From contig JAKTTT010000009.1 of NCBI GenBank assembly GCA_030581615.1, forward strand, positions 372,001-436,000: a stretch of 64,000 nucleotides of DNA, given 5' to 3'. Of the stretch, positions 15,847 to 39,750 are shown in pieces. This DNA comes from Alloascoidea africana. Its lineage: Eukaryota; Ascomycota; Alloascoideomycetes; Alloascoideales; Alloascoideaceae. The notes beneath the pieces are model-generated. The model did not search any database. It worked only from the letters and a program-made list of their open reading frames with translations, and had not been told where the DNA came from. Position numbers and translations under genes: made by a program. Each line of letters starts with the position of its first letter. Position 1 is the first letter of the stretch.

Positions 15847-16278
15847 CGATACCTGTGTTTTGTTCTCAAACCCTCTTCTCCCGTCTTGGTTCATATTATT
15901 GGCATTATTCAATTGTTAAACACATCTTGAAATATAAATGTAAATTAATTAGTTGCCATTTTCCAAACTCGCCTACTTTAGACACCATTTGAGATTACAA
16001 CTTTAATTGTTATACGTGTCTAATGTAGCCAGTTTATAGAGAGATAGTTATTCAAACTTGTTTTTTGGAAATGAGGAGATGACTAGTTTTTCAAGATAAC
16101 TTGTCATGAGGTTCCTCTATAGTGCCCAAGAATACAGAGATAGGTCATACTAAAATGTGTAACATTCCAACAAGGTATACTCAAATCTCAAGTTATAAAT
16201 AGCCATCATGATATTCAACTCTTAAGACCCTCCCATTCCAGAGTGAATTATATGGAAAAAAGGAAATGCAAAAATATT
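15847..16278. other. Intergenic, NOC2 3' flank to tRNA-Leu
   Basis: AT-rich spacer of about 430 bp between the NOC2 stop and the end of the tRNA-Leu gene. A T-run on the tRNA strand (caaatattttt, just past the tRNA) should serve as its polymerase III terminator. Nothing else is recognised. Confidence 0.5.
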
Positions 16279-16371
16279 TGAGAGCCACGAGATTCGAACT
16301 CGCGCATCCGAAGATATCAGAGTTCTTGAAGAACCTAAATCTGACGCCTTAGACCACTCGGCCAAGCTCCC
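16279..16371 (-). tRNA. tRNA-Leu(UAG) with an 11-nt intron
   Basis: The minus strand folds as a class II tRNA: acceptor GGGAGCT pairing with GGCTCTC, discriminator A, D-arm GGCCGAGTGG, a long variable arm (GATATCTTCGGAT) and T-arm GAGTTCGAATCTC. After removing TTCTTCAAGAA the anticodon stem is TCAGA/TCTGA with loop TTTAGGC, so the anticodon is TAG, reading CUA and probably other CUN codons. The intron lies one base 3' of the anticodon, the canonical place. The mature sequence closely resembles the Saccharomyces tRNA-Leu(UAG). A T5 terminator follows. The internal A and B boxes are intact. Confidence 0.95.
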
Positions 16372-17281
16372 ATTTTTTGATTTTTAAAACCTCGTGATAT
16401 TTATAAACAAATACTTGATTTTATTAGAACAGTGTACTATTGAGACTGGAGACAAGGATTATGAATGAAATTTTTCTCTTTCTTTTTCTTTTTCTTTTTC
16501 TTTTTCTTTTTCTTTTTCTTTTTCTTTTTCTTTTTCTTTTTCTTTTTCTTTTTCTTTTTCTTTTTCTTTTTCTTTTTCTTTTACTTTTCTTTTACTTTTC
16601 TTCTTCTTAAACTACTTAATGTTAATCTTCTAAGCCATAGACCTGAGAGTTCAGATCTGAGGTTCTGTTATCTCACATATGCCAGCACTGCTTTAAAAAA
16701 GCTCGTGATCAGTCTCTTTCAGCATTTGCATTAACTTAACACTGTTTGGTTTTGGCTGGATTCTACAGGATCTCAGCCGTTTTTGTTTCTCCTTCAGCAC
16801 TTGTATCAGCACTGTTAACCAGGGAGGCTAACATCTTCTGCTGTTGGTTCAGGATGGCGAATTATGCTGGCCATTAGACAAAATGCTTGTGATATAATTG
16901 ATGATATAAACATATATATTCAGGGCCAAGTTAAATAGAGAGAATCTAAGCTTTGAAGTTCATAGAATACGGAAATGTTTGTGGCAGTAAGCGAACTTTG
17001 AGTGCACAACAGAGCTTTTTTGTTGTCAAGTGCAGGCACGGTTGCCATATTTTTGGAATCGCTTATCCCCACCAAATCAGGATTAGCACATACGTCGGCT
17101 AATCATTTAGATTTGTTCCATTTTTGCCGGGGACCGACTTTATGTAGTACTTAGGTCAACTGGTCATTGAATCGTCAAGAAACCTACGGTGTTCATTTCC
17201 TGTCCGATCAAAGCTGATTCAACAAAAAAAAGGCATGCCAATAACGAATATTCCTACTTTCAAATAGTTAATACTATTATG
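16372..17281. other. Intergenic, tRNA-Leu 5' flank to KEX2 3' end
   Basis: About 910 bp without a recognisable gene. It contains the CTTTTT hexamer array and otherwise ordinary AT-rich DNA. The long Phe-only frame across the array is an artefact of the repeat. Confidence 0.5.
16471..16602. repeat. CTTTTT hexanucleotide microsatellite
   Basis: Near-perfect tandem CTTTTT units, with a purer core from about 16482 to 16582 and decayed copies (TTTTACTTTTC) at the right end. One strand is wholly pyrimidine, the other wholly purine. It lies about 110 bp upstream of the 5' end of tRNA-Leu. A nucleosome-depleting or simply neutral tract is likely. Confidence 0.95.
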
Positions 17282-23782: not shown

Positions 23783-23855
23783 GGGCGTGTGGCGCAGTTG
23801 GTAGCGCGTTAGATTTGCATTCTAAAGGTCTCTGGTTCGATCCCTGACTCGTCCA
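23783..23855 (+). tRNA. tRNA-Ala(UGC)
   Basis: 73-nt cloverleaf without an intron. The acceptor GGGCGTG pairs with CTCGTCC and includes G3:U70, the alanine identity pair; one T-T mismatch is present at the sixth pair. D-arm GCGCAGTTGGTAGCGC and anticodon stem TTAGA/TCTAA are perfect. The loop TTTGCAT gives anticodon TGC. The T-arm TCTGG/CCTGA around TTCGATC has one mismatch. A T8 run about 12 nt downstream is a polymerase III terminator. Two mismatched pairs are more than usual, yet the identity elements and promoter boxes are intact. Confidence 0.92.
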
Positions 23856-28800: not shown

Positions 28801-31250
28801 CCCATGTTTGGAGTTCGGAAGAACTAGATCGCAGAGGAGGCAGCCAATAGGAAAAAAAGGACAGTTATTAGAATGCGGCAGATACGAGAGACAATTGTTT
28901 CAAAACGAGATGCGATAACGCAATGACGATTGGGTCGGAAAGAAAAAGAAAAGAGAAGCGAAACGAAACGAAACGTCAGAGAATTATCGCATTTTGAGGT
29001 TTTTTCTCTATTTTGTATTTGTATTTATTTTATTCCCGAATAGATGGGGATGGGAATTACATCAGGGAAGATTAAGATAACGAGAGATAAATGGTGTAGT
29101 AAGCGGTTCGGTTGGGGGGTATGTCATTTTCCTTTTCCTTTTCCTTTTCCTTTTCATTTCAGCATGGTCGTTAGTAAACAATTGTGTTTAAGATTAGATT
29201 AGATTGCATTAAGTAAAAAAAAAGAGAGTTGATGGAAAGTCCATGTATGGGTGGAATTGGAATTAGAACTGGAACTGTGGACACCTGCACCAGTGCATTA
29301 TTGTTAGTAATGGCATCGACTAGAACTAGATTTGAGAGCTTCTAGAAGAAGGGTGTAGACGGACAGAGAGAGAGAGAGGGAGAGAAAGAGTTGTGCCTTT
29401 CGCCTGTTTAGGTTTTGGTTTTGGTTTCCTGGATTGGACGGATGGGGAGTAGAGATCTAGGTTTCACAAGATCGGCGGTATGGTTGGAGGATGGAGGATT
29501 GGGGGTGGATGAGATGGGACAGCCCGATGGAGGTGAAACGGGAGGAATGGCTGGGGTGTCTCTCTCATCTGTTGACAAGGAGGAGGAGAACAACAAGAGG
29601 ACCACTGCGAGCCGAGGATGGGCTGCCAATCAGAGCACAGCACAGCACAGCAGAGCACAGCAGGGATGGGAAGAGCAGCACCGCCAGAGCGAGAGCGAGA
29701 GCGAGAGCGAGAGAGAATAAGAGAGTGTGAGTGTGAGTGAGAGAGAGGGACTGAGGAGAGGCTCCACGCACGCCCGCGGCAACTCAATCTGGCCTCACAT
29801 GGCTGTCGCTCCAGCTCGATGCTCGGTGCTCGATGCTGGATGCTCCACCTGTCTCCGCGAAGATGCGCCGAGTCCGCGGAACAAACGCTGCCCGCTCGAC
29901 GAGGCTCTGGCGCTGCTCTGGCGCTGCTCTGGCGCTGCTCGTTCCTGCTCCCGCTGGCATTGCCAACATTGCTGGCATTGCTGCTGGCATTGCTGGCAAA
30001 GTTGACAACGCTGGACTTGCCTCGCTCCCTCTCCCTCTCCTTAATTCCGTGGTGGGCGAAAACGGAAACGAGCGAGATGAAATGAAACACCGCAGGATTG
30101 ACGTGAGCGTGCAGCAGCGTCCTGCACCCTAGCATGATGTTCCCCAAGCGATGGCCTGGCGGCGAAAACCTTTTCTGGGCTCCTCCGGGATGGGTGATGA
30201 GCTGTCACCCTTCTCTGGAGAACTGTGAGCTCAGCGAGTTCATAGTTTGCAGTTTGGTTATTTCTTTCAGTGTTCTGAATCTGACTCAGGTTCAGGTTCT
30301 GACTCTCGTGCTGGTGCTGGAGCAGGTTCAGGTTCAGGTTCAGGTTCTGGTGTCGGTGTAGCGCTGAGGGAAAAACCAAACCCAGCCAGATTAAGATTCA
30401 TTCTAGAAAAGCATCCGCGGTGCAGCGCTGCCCAGCCAACCACAGACAGACATCCCTCTAGGCTTTTTGTAATTGCAAGTGCGAGTGCGAGGACACTTCC
30501 ATCGGCTCCAGCTACGGCTGTTCTGGTTCTGCTTCTGGTTCTCGCTCTCGCGCTCGCTCTCGCGCTCGCTCTGCTCGTTGAGACTGAGATTGAGACCCAT
30601 GGGCGCCTCTGCTCCCGCTGCTCCCGCTGCTCCCGCCGGTCCCTACGGGCCCAGCGGTCGCAGCGGTCGCAACGGCCCCGAGTGATGTCACACGCAGGGT
30701 GACCTGGGGCGGTGTGCCGTGACGTCAGCGGGCCGGGCGCGAGAAGCGAGAAGCGAGATCTGGAATTGGCGGGCGGTCTGGGCCCGCCCGCCGGGGCCGG
30801 CACGCACCCGCTGGGCCGCTGCGACCGGGCGGGTCTGCGACGGCCTGCGACTGCCTGCACCCGCCTGCACCCGTCTGCGGGTCGGTGCTCCAGAGCTGAG
30901 CCAAAAATCCAAAAATCCAAAATCCAAAAATCCAAAATCCAAACGCAAAAAACCCAAAGCCAAAAAGCCAAAGAACAAAGGTGCCCTGTAAAACACAACA
31001 GCTCAAATGCAAATACACTTGGACTTATAAATATATAACCTCCCCCCTCCCCCTGCTTTCTCTTCTTGGTCTTTTCCACTCCTTCTTCTGCTCCCACTGT
31101 ACGGATCCAGGAATTGGCCCTATCTTTTATTTTATTCTCTTTGTTTTGATCTGTCCGTGGGCTCAAATAGACACTTTAACCCCCCACCCCCAATTGCAAA
31201 TTGAATTGCAAGTCCGCGCGCCCCCCAATTATTAAACAACCAAGCCTGCA
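25859..31250. promoter_or_regulatory. Very long divergent intergenic region, microsatellite- and GC-rich
   Basis: About 5.4 kb between the divergent starts of UBC8 and the Ada-like regulator. The left part is AT-rich with simple repeats: AGGAT near 26206-26220, AAATTG near 26282-26312, TTGAGA at 27733-27760, purine AAAGGGG at 28252-28284, CCATGT at 28685-28713 and TTTTCC at 29127-29155. From about 29.5 to 30.9 kb the sequence becomes GC-rich, with AGCGAG at 29687-29715, GGTTCA at 30323-30346, CTCGCT runs near 30540-30575 and a GGGCCC-like segment to 30890. A TATA-like run (ATAAATATATAA) at about 31027-31038, then a pyrimidine-rich leader, sits about 210 bp before the Ada-like start. Open frames here are compositional and not supported. 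Confidence 0.55.
29560..30890. other. GC-rich repetitive island
   Basis: A patch visibly richer in G and C than the surrounding AT-rich DNA, built from short repeats of GCTCT, CTGGCATTG, CAGGTT, CCCGCTGCT and similar units, with many CG dinucleotides. It has open frames on both strands (one of about 300 codons on the minus strand, 30267-31166) but these are low in complexity, overlap each other and match no family, so I do not call a gene. A structured 5' leader or promoter-island role for the downstream regulator gene is possible. Confidence 0.6.
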
Positions 31251-33353
31251 ATGCCCTATTCCTCAGAAAGCGCTAGATGGAATGCTTATCAGTTTGGTGA
31301 CCCTCTAGCCGTTGGATGCTTTGTCGTTTGTAGAAAACAATCCCATATCTATTGCCGACCGGACTGCGATGCCCAGACCCCAACAAGCCGCAGACTCTCC
31401 GTCCTTTTTCTGGATTCGGCCCAACTTGCCCATCAGATGGGCTACAACCCTTGTCTCCATTGCTCTCCAGATTCAACCCCAACCGTCGACATTTCAATAA
31501 TTGCCAAAACCGTCCATGATGCAAACAAAAAAATCGGATTTGAACCTGTGGCAGACGCGGCAACAGCCACCTCCACAGGCTCAGGCTCAGGCTCATCTTC
31601 CAACAGCCCTTGTTCGGATTCAGATGCTGCTGCTGCTGCTGCTTCTACGTCGACCACTACGGACCCTTATATGATGGCAAATAGCTCTCGCAAATTGTCC
31701 AGAACTGACCCAGACCACCATCAACTCGTCAATTTGGCTTGTCGCCATATCGCCGCAGCTGCTGCCTCCGCCGTCATATCCTCTCTATACTCGCCCTCGG
31801 AATCCGGTGAAGTCATATCTTCAATCTCCCAATCGAAAACTGACCCGGATCTCAACCACCATTCTTCCCTAACCTCCTCCGCTGTGGCCGCTGCAACGGT
31901 CGCCGCAACAGCGGCTTCTCCAAAGAAAAAGAGGAAAAGAGGCGGTGTTTTGGGCTTTAAAGAACTCGCTCTAAAGGCAAAGTTATCCCCATGGCATTTC
32001 CACAGAGTTTTCAAGTCCATAACTGGACTAACCCCAAAGGCATATGGCGATCTTTGCTGGGATACAGTTACCAAAAATAAGGCCTATATCGACACTCTTA
32101 AAACAAATTGCGCAACTGCTCTTTTTGAACGTGCTCGAAGAGAATCGAGCATTGACACTCTAGATCGGAAACATTTTACACAATCCCAGAAACAAGGTCA
32201 AAAAAATCAAAATAATGGTCAAAACCGTAGCAGGAGACAAAGTCAAAGCCAAAGTCAAAGTCAAAGCCAAAGCCAAAGCCCAAATCTGAATCAACACCAC
32301 CAGTTGAGAGCAAGAGACGTTAAAATGGAACACTCATCAAGTGTGGATTTCCGATATACCCCAACAACAGGGGGTTTACCACCGTCTCCCAATTTTACAA
32401 GTTCGGATTCCCTCTTCAATTTCTCAAGACCCTCGGAATACCCAACTATTCAAGTTCCTGGTAAAGCAGGTTCAAATATGGTTATGGGTCCAAATGGCCA
32501 TGGCCATAGCCATAGCCATTATCCCATAGACCAGCAACAACAGCAACAGCAGCAGCAGCAGCAGCAGCAATTACAGGTTCAATTTAACAATATGGATTGG
32601 CACTCTCCTGGTGCTGAAAGATTTTCTGTCCATGTTCAAGAAGATTCTAGTTATTCTCCCCATTTTATCCAACAAGTTTCCACTGCAGCAGGAACCTCAT
32701 CTTCATCTTCTTCAACAACAACCCCAATTGTCCCTTCTCATGCCCAATTCCCTCCTTTCCAACTAAGCGATCCAAATCTCGTTACAAGCTCGGTTGTCCC
32801 ACCTCTAGAAATTTCTCCTGGCGCAGGTGGTGTGCCTGTTGTTACTGGTGCTGGTGCTTATAATTCAAACGAATTCCAAGCACAGTTGAATACGAGGTCT
32901 TCTGCCTCTTCACTTGCTTCCTCTTCTGCTGCAAGTGCAACCACAAACACCAGTAACAACAGTTCCATCTCTTCTGCAGCCTCGGATTTTTCTTTCCTGA
33001 TTGACAACAATAATGAAAACCTATTGGATTATTCTTTTGGTACGGCAAACCCACCACCTCCGACAACAGCCTATGATTACGAACCTACAAAAATGGATTC
33101 AAACAATAACAATAGTACCGTTCCAACAAGCCTTACAAATCTGGATTTGGATTTGGGGCTTGGTATTGGCCACCATTCTTCTTCAATAGGCCTCGATTCT
33201 CCAACTATGATGCCTATTTTCCACTATTCTGGTGATTTTCAACATGAACGAGAAGGAGATCATTTGGATTCACATAACGATTCATTGACTCTGAACAGCG
33301 GCGCTATGGGTACAGGAGGAGGAGTCTTTTGTCTTGGTGCAACAGGTGCTTAG
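31251..33353 (+). CDS. Ada-type zinc domain / AraC helix-turn-helix regulator
   Basis: A 700-residue single-exon protein joining two bacterial-type modules to a fungal low-complexity tail. Residues about 8-75 match the N-terminal domain of Escherichia coli Ada, with Cys35 and Cys39 (IYCRPDC) and Cys68 and Cys71 (NPCLHC) as zinc ligands; in Ada one such cysteine takes a methyl group from DNA phosphotriesters and switches the protein into an activator. Residues about 232-278 form an AraC helix-turn-helix with SPWHFHRVFKSITGLTPKAY, very close to that of Ada. No O6-methylguanine methyltransferase domain follows. The linker and tail are rich in Ala, Ser, Gln and Asn, with polyQ coded at about 32534-32569. 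Role inferred: alkylation-responsive transcription factor. Related fungal proteins exist, but targets are unknown. Confidence 0.85.
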   Translation: MPYSSESARWNAYQFGDPLAVGCFVVCRKQSHIYCRPDCDAQTPTSRRLSVLFLDSAQLAHQMGYNPCLHCSPDSTPTVDISIIAKTVHDANKKIGFEPVADAATATSTGSGSGSSSNSPCSDSDAAAAAASTSTTTDPYMMANSSRKLSRTDPDHHQLVNLACRHIAAAAASAVISSLYSPSESGEVISSISQSKTDPDLNHHSSLTSSAVAAATVAATAASPKKKRKRGGVLGFKELALKAKLSPWHFHRVFKSITGLTPKAYGDLCWDTVTKNKAYIDTLKTNCATALFERARRESSIDTLDRKHFTQSQKQGQKNQNNGQNRSRRQSQSQSQSQSQSQSPNLNQHHQLRARDVKMEHSSSVDFRYTPTTGGLPPSPNFTSSDSLFNFSRPSEYPTIQVPGKAGSNMVMGPNGHGHSHSHYPIDQQQQQQQQQQQQQLQVQFNNMDWHSPGAERFSVHVQEDSSYSPHFIQQVSTAAGTSSSSSSTTTPIVPSHAQFPPFQLSDPNLVTSSVVPPLEISPGAGGVPVVTGAGAYNSNEFQAQLNTRSSASSLASSSAASATTNTSNNSSISSAASDFSFLIDNNNENLLDYSFGTANPPPPTTAYDYEPTKMDSNNNNSTVPTSLTNLDLDLGLGIGHHSSSIGLDSPTMMPIFHYSGDFQHEREGDHLDSHNDSLTLNSGAMGTGGGVFCLGATGA

Positions 33354-35109: not shown

Positions 35110-38100
35110 CTATTTATAATGTTGAAAAACAGAACGATCCGCTCCTGCAAGTCCATTTCTTAAAGCATACATTTGCCAAGTTTCAATAGGAATCGAATTT
35201 TCATCAAAGTTTTCCTCATTTTCTTTATCCTCCTGTATTGCAATAATTTTTTTGCCATTTTTTTCTTCCAAAACAATACGTGTATTTCCCCATGTAAAAT
35301 TATCTTGATTCCAAAATGAATAAATCGGTAAAATAAATGAATGTATTGGAAGTGCTGCAAAATAAACAACCATCCAACCAATCAATTGATATTGCTTTTT
35401 CACAATATACAAAATCATTTGTAATCCATAAACGCTCGCAATCATAATTACCGAAATTAGGGGGAAAACACTGTTTTTGGATGCAATCACATAGACAAGA
35501 TAAACCAAATAGACAAAAACAGATGGTAGCAAGATTGTTCCGGCCAAATCCACAAATACAATAAACCTCATTGAAAAACATAAAAATCCACATAATCCTT
35601 TCAACTTGAATAATTCAACAAGATTATGAATTGTTGAATTGATCCATCGTCGTCGTTGAGATAATAACACGGAAAATTTTTCAGGAGCAGTGGTCTTTGC
35701 CTGTGCATCAGGATTAAAAGTAAGCTTCATCTTGGGGAAATGCTTTAATAAAATAGTCGTTAGATATCGATCCTCACCCAATGAAAATAAATTCTTCATG
35801 TGTAAAGTGTTAACATCATCCAATGCATATTCTTCAATAACCTCATCCGACATGAATATAGGACGTGCCTTATCAACTGTTCTCAATCGATACAATGAAA
35901 AGCAACCAGGTAAACATGTAACACTACCAAACAAACTTTCAAACGCTTTTGAAAGATGATGTGAAATGTAATATTCGTAAATCTGTAACATTGTGAAAAG
36001 TGATTTTTCCTCATTCATAAGCTTTGTTTCTCCACATATTCCACAAATTCGACTATCCTGAACACAACTCGAGACCAAAGTTGCAAGAGAATCAGGCATA
36101 GCCATTGTATCTGCATCAATTGTAAATAAAAATTCAAATAATTCGGGATCAATCCCAATAATATTGTTGATATGATGGAATAACTCTAACTCAAGTGGAT
36201 TCATCCCCCGTTGGAAATGTACCTTGTTGAGAAACCTCATTAACAACACTTGTGAATCCCGTTTCCCCCTGTTCCCAGGCTTTGAAACTTCGGTAGCCTT
36301 GCCCACTTTCACCACAACTAGATACGGACAAACACTGCCTTCAAATTCGTATAAACCAGAGTAAACCTTGGCATAATTGAGCTTTGCACTACCTTGACCC
36401 ACACTCCTGAATGGCAAAGCTGGTGGATCATATTTGTCATCAACACCAAAAATGTCTAGCACAATTTGAGCAGTGGATTCCTCGTTCCCTGCGCCTGTCA
36501 CAACACCATCACATACGAGGAAAATCAGTTTGCGTTGGTTATCATAATTGAGAGTCGTTATTGAGTCAATCGCATACCTCAATGCCGCTTCACCCTCCGT
36601 ATAGGCCGGAATTTGACAAATAACGTACTTGCTCTGTGGAGCGGGCTTTTTCCCAAATCCAAATTGTAAAGCGGCAAGAAATTTGATCAAAGTCACAGCA
36701 GATAAAGCAACTGCCATAGCCAACAACACGTAATTCGCAGCCTGACATCGGGCGCTTTTTCGGAAATCAAGTTTCGCCGTATAGAAAACCTTCGTGATAC
36801 AATCCATGTTTTCTTTTTTCGTCTGTTCCGAAATCTCCAACTTTTCAATTGCAGATGTAATATCACTTCCTGCATTGTTTTCAAACAAATCTGTAAGCTT
36901 GGAGTCCAAAAACTTGTAGTTTTTGTATCCGTCCATCAATTTCACCGTGTACAAATAATTCGTCAGATCGTATACTGAACCATTCACTATCGCCCAATTG
37001 TTATCACCGCTTTGACCAAGCTTTCGTACCTTGTCCCTCGTCACCACAAGATCTCCCTTGTAATATTTTTTCAAAGATGGGATCAAAACATCGTCATACC
37101 ACGAGTACTGGTAAGTAGCACTGTCTTCCCATCGCACTTTAAAGTCTCCACTATAATGCACCGCTCTCTCATCATCCACCGTCTGATTCGGCATCAGCCA
37201 AATGGTCTTGTCCTTGACGAGATTAGGACAAGCAACCGTCAGCGGCCGTGGGAAAAGATCCGTCACATCCTGGCCCGCAAATAACATCATTGTCGTGTCA
37301 TCCGACTTGATCGGCGTATCCGAGTGCTGTTTCTTGTGGAACTTGGTAAAATCATACACTTTGCCACTGATCGCAGCATAGTAGTCGCCGGTACCCTGGT
37401 GGTAACCCACCTCTTTCACATTCCAAGCCTTGTCAAAGTCTGGACACGTTATCCGCATCAGGAAAATCATGTAGAAAATGATCCCACCATTGATAAGAAA
37501 TATGAGAAAACAGATAAACACTTTTTCTCGCCATGCCATTCTTACATCAGCCCGTTTCATCCTTAAAATGTACTTGAGAATTGGACTGGGCATCCAAAAA
37601 GTGCAAGCCCACACAAGCGAGACCCATAGTCGCCGTTGGCGAGAAGTGCGCTGAACCTGAATAGTCCGGTCTCCCATAGCAAGGCCTTGCTCCATTTCGT
37701 ATTGTTCCACCACCTGCTGGTGCTCCTGCTGCTGTTTGCGGTCCACCATGTAATCATCATCGTCCATTTCAAACTGCTCTTCTTCATCGTATCGGCTCGA
37801 CTCGTACCCCGCAATGCTATAGGCGCCTTCATGAAAGGGATTCACACTAGGAGGCCCCGTAACAATGCTCGCATGTTGTAACTGTTGCTGTGATGAGACA
37901 AGACTAGACAGGTCTTGTTCAAGAGCCTGCCAGGCAAAATCCGTCATCCAGATTCTTTCACGACCGAAAAAAGCATCCGCCAAGGTCCATGAACGAACAC
38001 TTTGAGCCCATTCCTCTACAGTCTCCGCGTTCACGTAGGGAGGTAATAACACGCTGTAGTGTTCGAGAAACTCTGCATAGTCAAAGTCTACAGAGTAAGG

Positions 38101-39750
38101 ACACACTTCTCGCTTTGCAATCCACTCTGTCAGCGCAATTGAGCGGATCTGCGATGAAACGAGAGCTGTCTCCCAGTTGTCAGTGTCTGATTTCAAACCG
38201 CCCGAATAATGCGATGCGTTCTTGCTCGTGGCAAGATTCATCACTGTCCACACACGAGTCTCTGAAAAGATTTCTCTCATGTCGTCATCGTCACCATCTT
38301 CTTCTCCATCTTCATCTTCATCATCATCATCTGCTTTCCCGGGCGATTCATTAAAAGGGTTCTTGGAGCTTGACGATCTGGCCAAGACCTTGTTGGAGAA
38401 AATCGGCTCGGATATTAGATCGTGGTTGAAGCATCTGGCAACTGTTTTCTGCTCCTCGGACTCCATGTGTCCCATCTTCTCTCGAACTGTCCGGGACGTG
38501 GGGACACCGCTGAAGCCATCCGCAATGAGCTCTGCGTTAATTCCAGTCGTATCGTCAAACACTGAGTTCACAACTCGGCCTCGTTTCCAAAGTGGAAGGT
38601 CCACTACGTTCACCACAGACACAACGCGCCTCTCCAGATCAGCCTCTTCATCCTCATCCACATTTTCGTTATTTTGAGCCCGTAAGTGCTGCCTCACAGG
38701 CAGCAACCGCTCTTCAATCAGCTCGTTTGCCCTCCGGATCATAAACCTGACGAGATCAATATAAGCCGTGCTGATGATTTCCTTTTTCGTATACTTGTCA
38801 AAAACTTCAGGCTCCAGCTCTAGTAGCGTTGCACCCTCGATCAAATCCACCTCTTCTTCATCTGCATTACCAATCAACAAGATTGCAGAGAGAACAGACA
38901 GAATATCTGTGATTTCTGCTTGAGAAAATCCAACTGCATCAAGCGAATCTCTCCAGTCGGATGCCAGTGCATAATCATCCAATAGAGTGTTTTTAACATG
39001 TGAGAGAGTATAGGTATTGGATTTCCGCAAAAGGTTGTATTCAGAGGCAGAATTCTTGACGGACAAAACCTCCCGTTCCTCAACAGATACAGAGTTGAGC
39101 AAATGGTAAAAAACGCTAAAGGACCTGTAACCTGATTTTTCAGGCAGATCCAACAACGGATTGAGGTCCAACATTGGCTCATAGGTCCGCAGTCGCGCTT
39201 TCAAAATCCTTCCTTCGCCATCTATCGTGAATGCAAATACTATCCCATTGTGAAACGTTGAAAAGACATTGTAAGGTGTGGTTGCTGTGAAGAATGGGTA
39301 GATCACTTCTAGTGCATTCTGGAACAGCGTGGTTTCTCTTGGTACGGTCCCGATGGTCTCCGCAAACGATGAAGGAGCAGATTTGTCAAGAGGTCTGTCA
39401 AGGAAGCAATTTTTTACAAGGTTAGTGAGTTGTTATCCAAGCGAGAGTACCATGAGTTTTGCATTTAAGCATGTGTGAAGGAGCAAAGATCAACCGCCGC
39501 AAAGAAGCAACAACAAACTGAACAGGTGTAAAAAAAGAAAAATACTAAAATATATGACTTACACGACTGCAAGAGTCTGGTTCTCGGATCTCATATACGC
39601 ATGTTTCCATAATGTATTCAAGAAATTCTCATCCAGTTCGGAATCAAGCTGTAATGTAGACGTTGAGTCCACGTCGATTGTTGGCACCCCATCTGTAAAA
39701 TGGTCGTTGATAGTTTTGAGCAGCAACGACGTTGTTATGTGCTGTGACAT
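35110..39750 (-). CDS. Chitin synthase with myosin-like N-terminal domain (class V/VII)
   Basis: Membrane enzyme that polymerises chitin from UDP-GlcNAc. Exons 39563-39750 and 35110-39394 (GTAAGT donor, CAG acceptor) give 1490 residues. The first 550 or so resemble a reduced myosin head: YNVFSTFHNGIVFAF, FSVFYHLLNSVSVEER and the ILSAILLIGNADEE block are seen, but no GxxGxGKT P-loop. A Glu/Gln-rich segment precedes the first membrane helices (about 650-700). A cytochrome-b5-like domain starts KAWNVKEVGYHQGTGDYYAA. The catalytic domain has TIDADTMAMPDSLA, EDRYLTT and QRRRW (QRRRWINSTIHNL), then C-terminal helices. There is no recognisable DEK_C domain at the end. That points to class VII rather than V, though I rank this as inference. 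Such fusions mark filamentous fungi and basal yeasts. Confidence 0.93.

Follow-up and report, generated by a model that had tools for sequence, protein, structure and literature searches.

An Ada-type zinc domain and a split helix-turn-helix in a putative transcription factor family of budding yeasts

Architecture of the encoded protein

The window analyzed here, a 64,000-nucleotide stretch of the Alloascoidea africana genome (assembly GCA_030581615.1, contig JAKTTT010000009.1, positions 372,001 to 436,000 of the forward strand), contains an ATG open reading frame (ORF) for a 700-aa protein that combines an Ada-type zinc domain, an AraC-type helix-turn-helix (HTH), and a long low-complexity tail (Table 1). 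On balance, we favor the reading that this protein is a sequence-specific budding-yeast transcription factor derived from the N-terminal half of bacterial Ada (N-Ada), in which the methyl switch of Ada has been lost or replaced. The start codon is backed by homologues that have the same opening segment.

The four-cysteine Ada zinc pattern reported in the first-pass annotation was confirmed by a match to Ada_Zn_binding (PF02805; residues 8-74, E 3e-19, 69.2 bits against a cut-off of 23), and Cys35, Cys39, Cys68, and Cys71 are invariant columns in a 59-row alignment. The predicted structure retains the zinc site, with a predicted local distance difference test (pLDDT) score of about 90 or more for the domain. 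The AraC-type HTH also holds, although the HTH_AraC match (PF00165; residues 237-265, E 3.3e-6) is barely above its cut-off (27.5 bits versus 26.6); the segment SPWHFHRVFKSITGLTPKAY occupies residues 246-265. A second AraC HTH was not detected by Pfam, and the match to HTH_18 spans only positions 1-27 of 80 and lies below its cut-off. Among solved structures, those of N-Ada match best, aligning over two distinct segments (residues 6-76 and residues 237-266), and both sequence and predicted fold support homology to N-Ada. As proposed earlier, the methyltransferase half is missing, with no such domain listed by Pfam or NCBIfam. The low-complexity Ser/Gln/Asn-rich nature of the tail (17% S, 10% Q, and 8% N in residues 291-700) likewise stands, whereas its designation as an activation region is a possibility drawn from composition. 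The basic patch KKKRKR may function in nuclear localization or in contacting the DNA backbone.

Table 1. Positions of the ORF, its parts, and tRNA genes in the window
Feature	Position	Strand	Basis or remark
ORF, putative Ada-derived yeast transcription factor	31251..33353	+	700 aa + stop
Ada zinc domain, residues 8-74, ligands Cys35/Cys39/Cys68/Cys71	31272..31472	+	Pfam, alignment, predicted fold
Predicted helix, residues 81-95, kept across the yeast family	31491..31535	+	Alignment, structure prediction
First helix of the split HTH (DHHQLVNLACRHIAAAA...), residues 154-180, corresponding to ITHACRLLE of Ada	31710..31790	+	Alignment, structure prediction
Ser/Ala-rich low-confidence insert within the HTH domain, residues 181-224	31791..31922	+	Structure prediction, composition
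Basic patch KKKRKR, residues 225-230	31923..31940	+	
Remaining HTH helices, residues 234-275	31950..32075	+	Pfam, alignment, predicted structure, PMC4437013
Ser/Gln/Asn-rich tail, residues 291-700	32121..33350	+	Composition
tRNA-Leu gene	16278-16372	-	
tRNA-Ala gene	23783-23855	+	

Conservation across the yeast family

The 700-aa protein is a member of a family common to many budding yeasts and not an isolated fusion. Three close relatives share 65, 63, and 49% identity with it over residues 1-80, and a profile search returned 154 matches, of which 120 were listed; organisms among the matches listed include Candida albicans, Metschnikowia, Scheffersomyces, Diutina, Ogataea, Pachysolen, Wickerhamomyces, and Babjeviella. 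Together with 121 retrieved relatives of the same type, the protein forms a set of 122, from which ten bacterial matches and the proteins P0004 and P0005 were separated as a different type. The family is uncharacterized and carries the name “Ada DNA repair metal-binding domain-containing protein”; its architecture and motifs are those of the 700-aa protein: the C. albicans member P0080, for instance, shares with it the zinc domain, the DH..LV..ACRH helix, a variable insert, and the GVLGFKELA...WHFHRVFK HTH. Owing to the split and the divergence of the HTH, a precomputed HTH_AraC match is present in only 4 of the 119 members of the yeast type among the matches listed, and this mostly undetected HTH suggests why the family is labeled in databases as a repair protein.

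The split lies between helices 1 and 2 of the HTH, with helix 1 located upstream of a disordered insert of about 50 residues, and the two halves are packed together in the AlphaFold prediction. The spacing between the C of ACR and W114 ranges over 44-95 residues in the 122 yeast proteins versus 24 in 32 of the 35 measurable bacterial proteins (32 of the 80 bacterial sequences fell outside the HTH pattern and were left uncounted). In Ada, the B box is read by F114, H115, and R118 of the HTH (PMC4437013). The corresponding residues of the 700-aa protein are W248, H249, and R252, and W/H/R is found in all 122 yeast-type proteins, an aromatic residue replacing Phe. The split, together with the missing second AraC HTH, could indicate that the protein no longer binds DNA and that what is left of the HTH, along with the zinc domain, now mediates contacts between proteins. 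This seems very improbable, as conservation within the family is highest in the HTH (0.83 versus 0.59 for the zinc domain) and the base-reading positions are all kept.

The zinc domain presents a different combination of kept and changed residues. The four cysteines are kept in 122/122 yeast-type proteins; a strict pattern finds 121, and P0132, which this pattern misses, has CTPDC...CEFC. According to the same Ada study, Cys38 is the methyl acceptor, a charge conflict with DNA is relieved on methylation, and the A box is read by R45 and R71 of the zinc domain (PMC4437013). Ada positions 45, 67, and 71 are Q, N, and H in the 700-aa protein. Across the yeast family, position 71 is basic in one protein and position 67 in 14 of the 122. 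In 80 bacterial domains retrieved by pattern, R67 and R71 are both present in 80/80, an outcome favored by the retrieval patterns, which themselves require both residues and thus bias this set. As a control against this bias, 19 bacterial domains retrieved by profile only (L106-L124; the weak, partial matches L125-L133 were left out) were examined; R67 is retained in 18/19 and so is R71, and 14/19 have R or K at position 45. The mean net charge of the zinc domain is -0.27 in the yeast family versus +4.88 in the 80 bacterial domains.

These replacements bear on whether the protein works like Ada, with Cys35 taking the methyl group of a phosphotriester, the charge falling, and the protein then binding its sites and turning on alkylation-repair genes. 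Two observations speak for such a mechanism and weigh against loss of the switch: the CRPxC context is almost unaltered in the yeast zinc domains, and R45 is still there in almost half of the family (56/122). Three points stand against an Ada-like mechanism: most family members have lost R67 and R71, the 700-aa protein also lacks R45, and the mean charge is no longer positive. The same pattern could arise if the zinc-thiolate site has been re-used to sense electrophiles, oxidants, or another methyl donor directly, switching the factor with no DNA phosphotriester involved. The invariant motif and the kept context of the acceptor cysteine, alongside the lost DNA-handling arginines, fit this proposal, but four conserved cysteines are equally expected of a purely structural zinc site. 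Separately, partial Ada-type zinc domains occur in Chloroflexota proteins that look unlike Ada (L126-L130), where R67 is kept and R71 is not, and the module has seemingly been re-used there.

A paralog, repair genes, and origin

A search of the genome (23.2 Mb, 138 contigs) identified another Ada zinc domain, encoded on contig C43, with a higher score than that of the window gene (105.8 versus 73.8 bits). The C43 gene (L003:5081-7594) encodes 837 aa from its likely start. In common with P0004 and Capronia P0005, its product resembles the 700-aa protein in having an Ada zinc domain, one HTH, and a long tail, and all three keep R45, R67, K70, and R71. The C43 protein differs from the window protein in that it matches N-Ada (1zgw) in one contiguous stretch (14-148, 107.6 bits) and keeps every DNA-reading residue tested for both the A box and the B box; its HTH scores below the Pfam cut-offs. 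The presence of this better-preserved paralog in the same genome also argues against an Ada-like mechanism for the window protein, and, judged from these residues, the C43 protein is more likely than the window protein to be the alkylation sensor of this genome.

The sole PF01035 match found in the genome (contig C70, L004 about 1307-1839) apparently has one intron and reads PWWRV at the methyltransferase acceptor-cysteine motif; among solved structures it is closest to alkyltransferase-like protein 1 (3gva, E 2.7e-14). No true O6-methylguanine methyltransferase was therefore found in the genome, as this lone match is alkyltransferase-like and lacks the acceptor cysteine. The genome also holds HhH-GPD glycosylases and two AlkB-type genes.

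Ada-box-like sites (AAT N6 GCAA) are absent within 1 kb upstream of C43 and in L004, L005, L006, L007, and L009, which include the MAG-type and alkyltransferase-like loci; this also speaks against Ada-like control of repair genes. One site each occurs in L003, outside the C43 promoter, and in L008, inside an AlkB-type ORF. Two are located upstream of the window gene (30936 and 31199), but with 15 sites across the 64 kb these were not taken as evidence of autoregulation. Two copies of AATTGCAA, 12 bases apart, also precede the start codon (31192-31211). This pair was dropped as a candidate regulatory element: the window has no excess of AATTGCAA (6 observed versus 6.9 expected) or of TTGCAA (29 versus 38), and similar tandem repeats abound in the genome, with 10 of the 17 genome-wide matches to the pair pattern (control, 0) being plain tandem repeats. 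The region farther upstream (29415-30900) and several fetched loci are also rich in short tandem repeats, which translate into runs of SE, QS, or NL. On the other side of the gene, the minus strand encodes a chitin synthase (35110-39306) with a partial myosin-head match, a cytochrome b5 domain, and a CHS4-like region, whose coding start may be farther upstream.

The origin of these genes was examined in a tree of 69 rows, comprising 45 bacterial proteins (of 80 + 19), 21 of the 122 yeast proteins, and three canonical fungal proteins, for which the bootstrap had not settled. The yeast family forms one clade (100/100), in which the 700-aa protein and P0001 branch outside the other sampled yeast members, the pair itself being weakly supported (84/41). 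All 24 fungal rows fall on one side of a branch (94/90, not starred) and adjoin a subset of bacterial Ada. A bacterial origin of the fungal Ada-type genes, suggested earlier as an old transfer, is thus likely, and the close relatives show neither loss of the cysteines nor a placement far from Ada. The number of transfers is less firm: a single transfer gives the best tree, but approximately unbiased (AU) tests did not reject C43 placed with a bacterium (p-AU 0.195), the yeast family and Capronia placed with Enterobacteriaceae (p-AU 0.332), or a grouping of the three canonical fungal proteins (0.204). Since splitting the fungi is not rejected, two transfers are also compatible with the data, and a single transfer and a duplication are both tentative readings.

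Comparison with known systems and proposed function

The 700-aa protein has the zinc fold, the four cysteines, and the aromatic-H-R residues at the B-box positions in common with the N-terminal half of Escherichia coli Ada (PDB 1zgw, 1u8b, 1wpk, and 1adn). It differs from E. coli Ada in that the A-box arginines R45/R71 are largely gone, the HTH is broken by the disordered insert instead of following the zinc domain contiguously, and a long low-complexity tail is present but no C-terminal O6-methylguanine methyltransferase domain. Of the two HTH motifs that make up the DNA-binding domain of the AraC/XylS family, the second was not detected. Among other systems, Cada2 of Caulobacter is likewise related to Ada and retains the B-box HTH but does not read an A box; unlike the yeast protein, it has no zinc domain and is switched via a methyltransferase cysteine that the 700-aa protein lacks (PMC10957082). 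Ada-type proteins are known in basidiomycetes and ascomycetes (PMC9769804), including SaraC of Stereum hirsutum, described as regulating secondary metabolism and, in vitro, as binding and weakly demethylating 5-methylcytosine and 6-methyladenine (5mC/6mA) oligonucleotides. SaraC is set beside the yeast protein by description and differs in its reported role. The AraC-type HTH was included in a survey of fungal transcription factors (PMC5415576) and is reported as absent from the two yeast genomes of another study (PMC10056406).

Our literature search, whose coverage excluded most subscription journals, found no paper presenting the yeast family as an Ada-derived factor. The C. albicans member P0080 is presumably ADAEC. 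In the portions of the Candida literature available, ADAEC is reported as of unknown function in C. albicans and is connected with white cells, Efg1, and resistance to azoles rather than with alkylation. It is likewise white-specific in C. tropicalis (PMC3605238), belongs to the core targets of Efg1 (PMC8980467) and to the targets of Hsf1 (PMC10699808), and is occupied by Ncb2 (PMC5382705), with a single mention each in PMC2718853 and PMC6266447. Its higher expression in an azole-resistant isolate and its place among Hsf1 targets are circumstantial points in favor of a re-used zinc-thiolate sensor, which we nevertheless consider unlikely. The literature on white cells, Efg1, and azole resistance is a further point against Ada-like working of the window protein. 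The alkylation-responsive role suggested in the first-pass annotation was not borne out, with the DNA-contact residues of the zinc domain largely lost here and kept in C43, and we regard it as doubtful.

In the favored reading, that of a transcription factor in which the methyl switch is lost or replaced, DNA would be bound mainly through the HTH with its three fixed B-box-reading positions, and the tail would recruit the transcription machinery. The zinc domain would be retained as a folded module and is probably no longer a DNA-phosphotriester sensor with an electrostatic switch because the DNA-engaging arginines are largely gone. Phosphotriester sensing, if it takes place in this yeast, would more likely fall to the C43 paralog. 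A more specific and quite tentative proposal, which we think improbable, is a division of labor after duplication, in which a re-used zinc-thiolate sensor with a split HTH exists beside a paralog that keeps the ancestral alkylation sensing. With ancestral and altered forms in one genome, A. africana may offer an experimentally testable example of how a sensor from bacterial DNA repair was domesticated into a regulator in a eukaryote.
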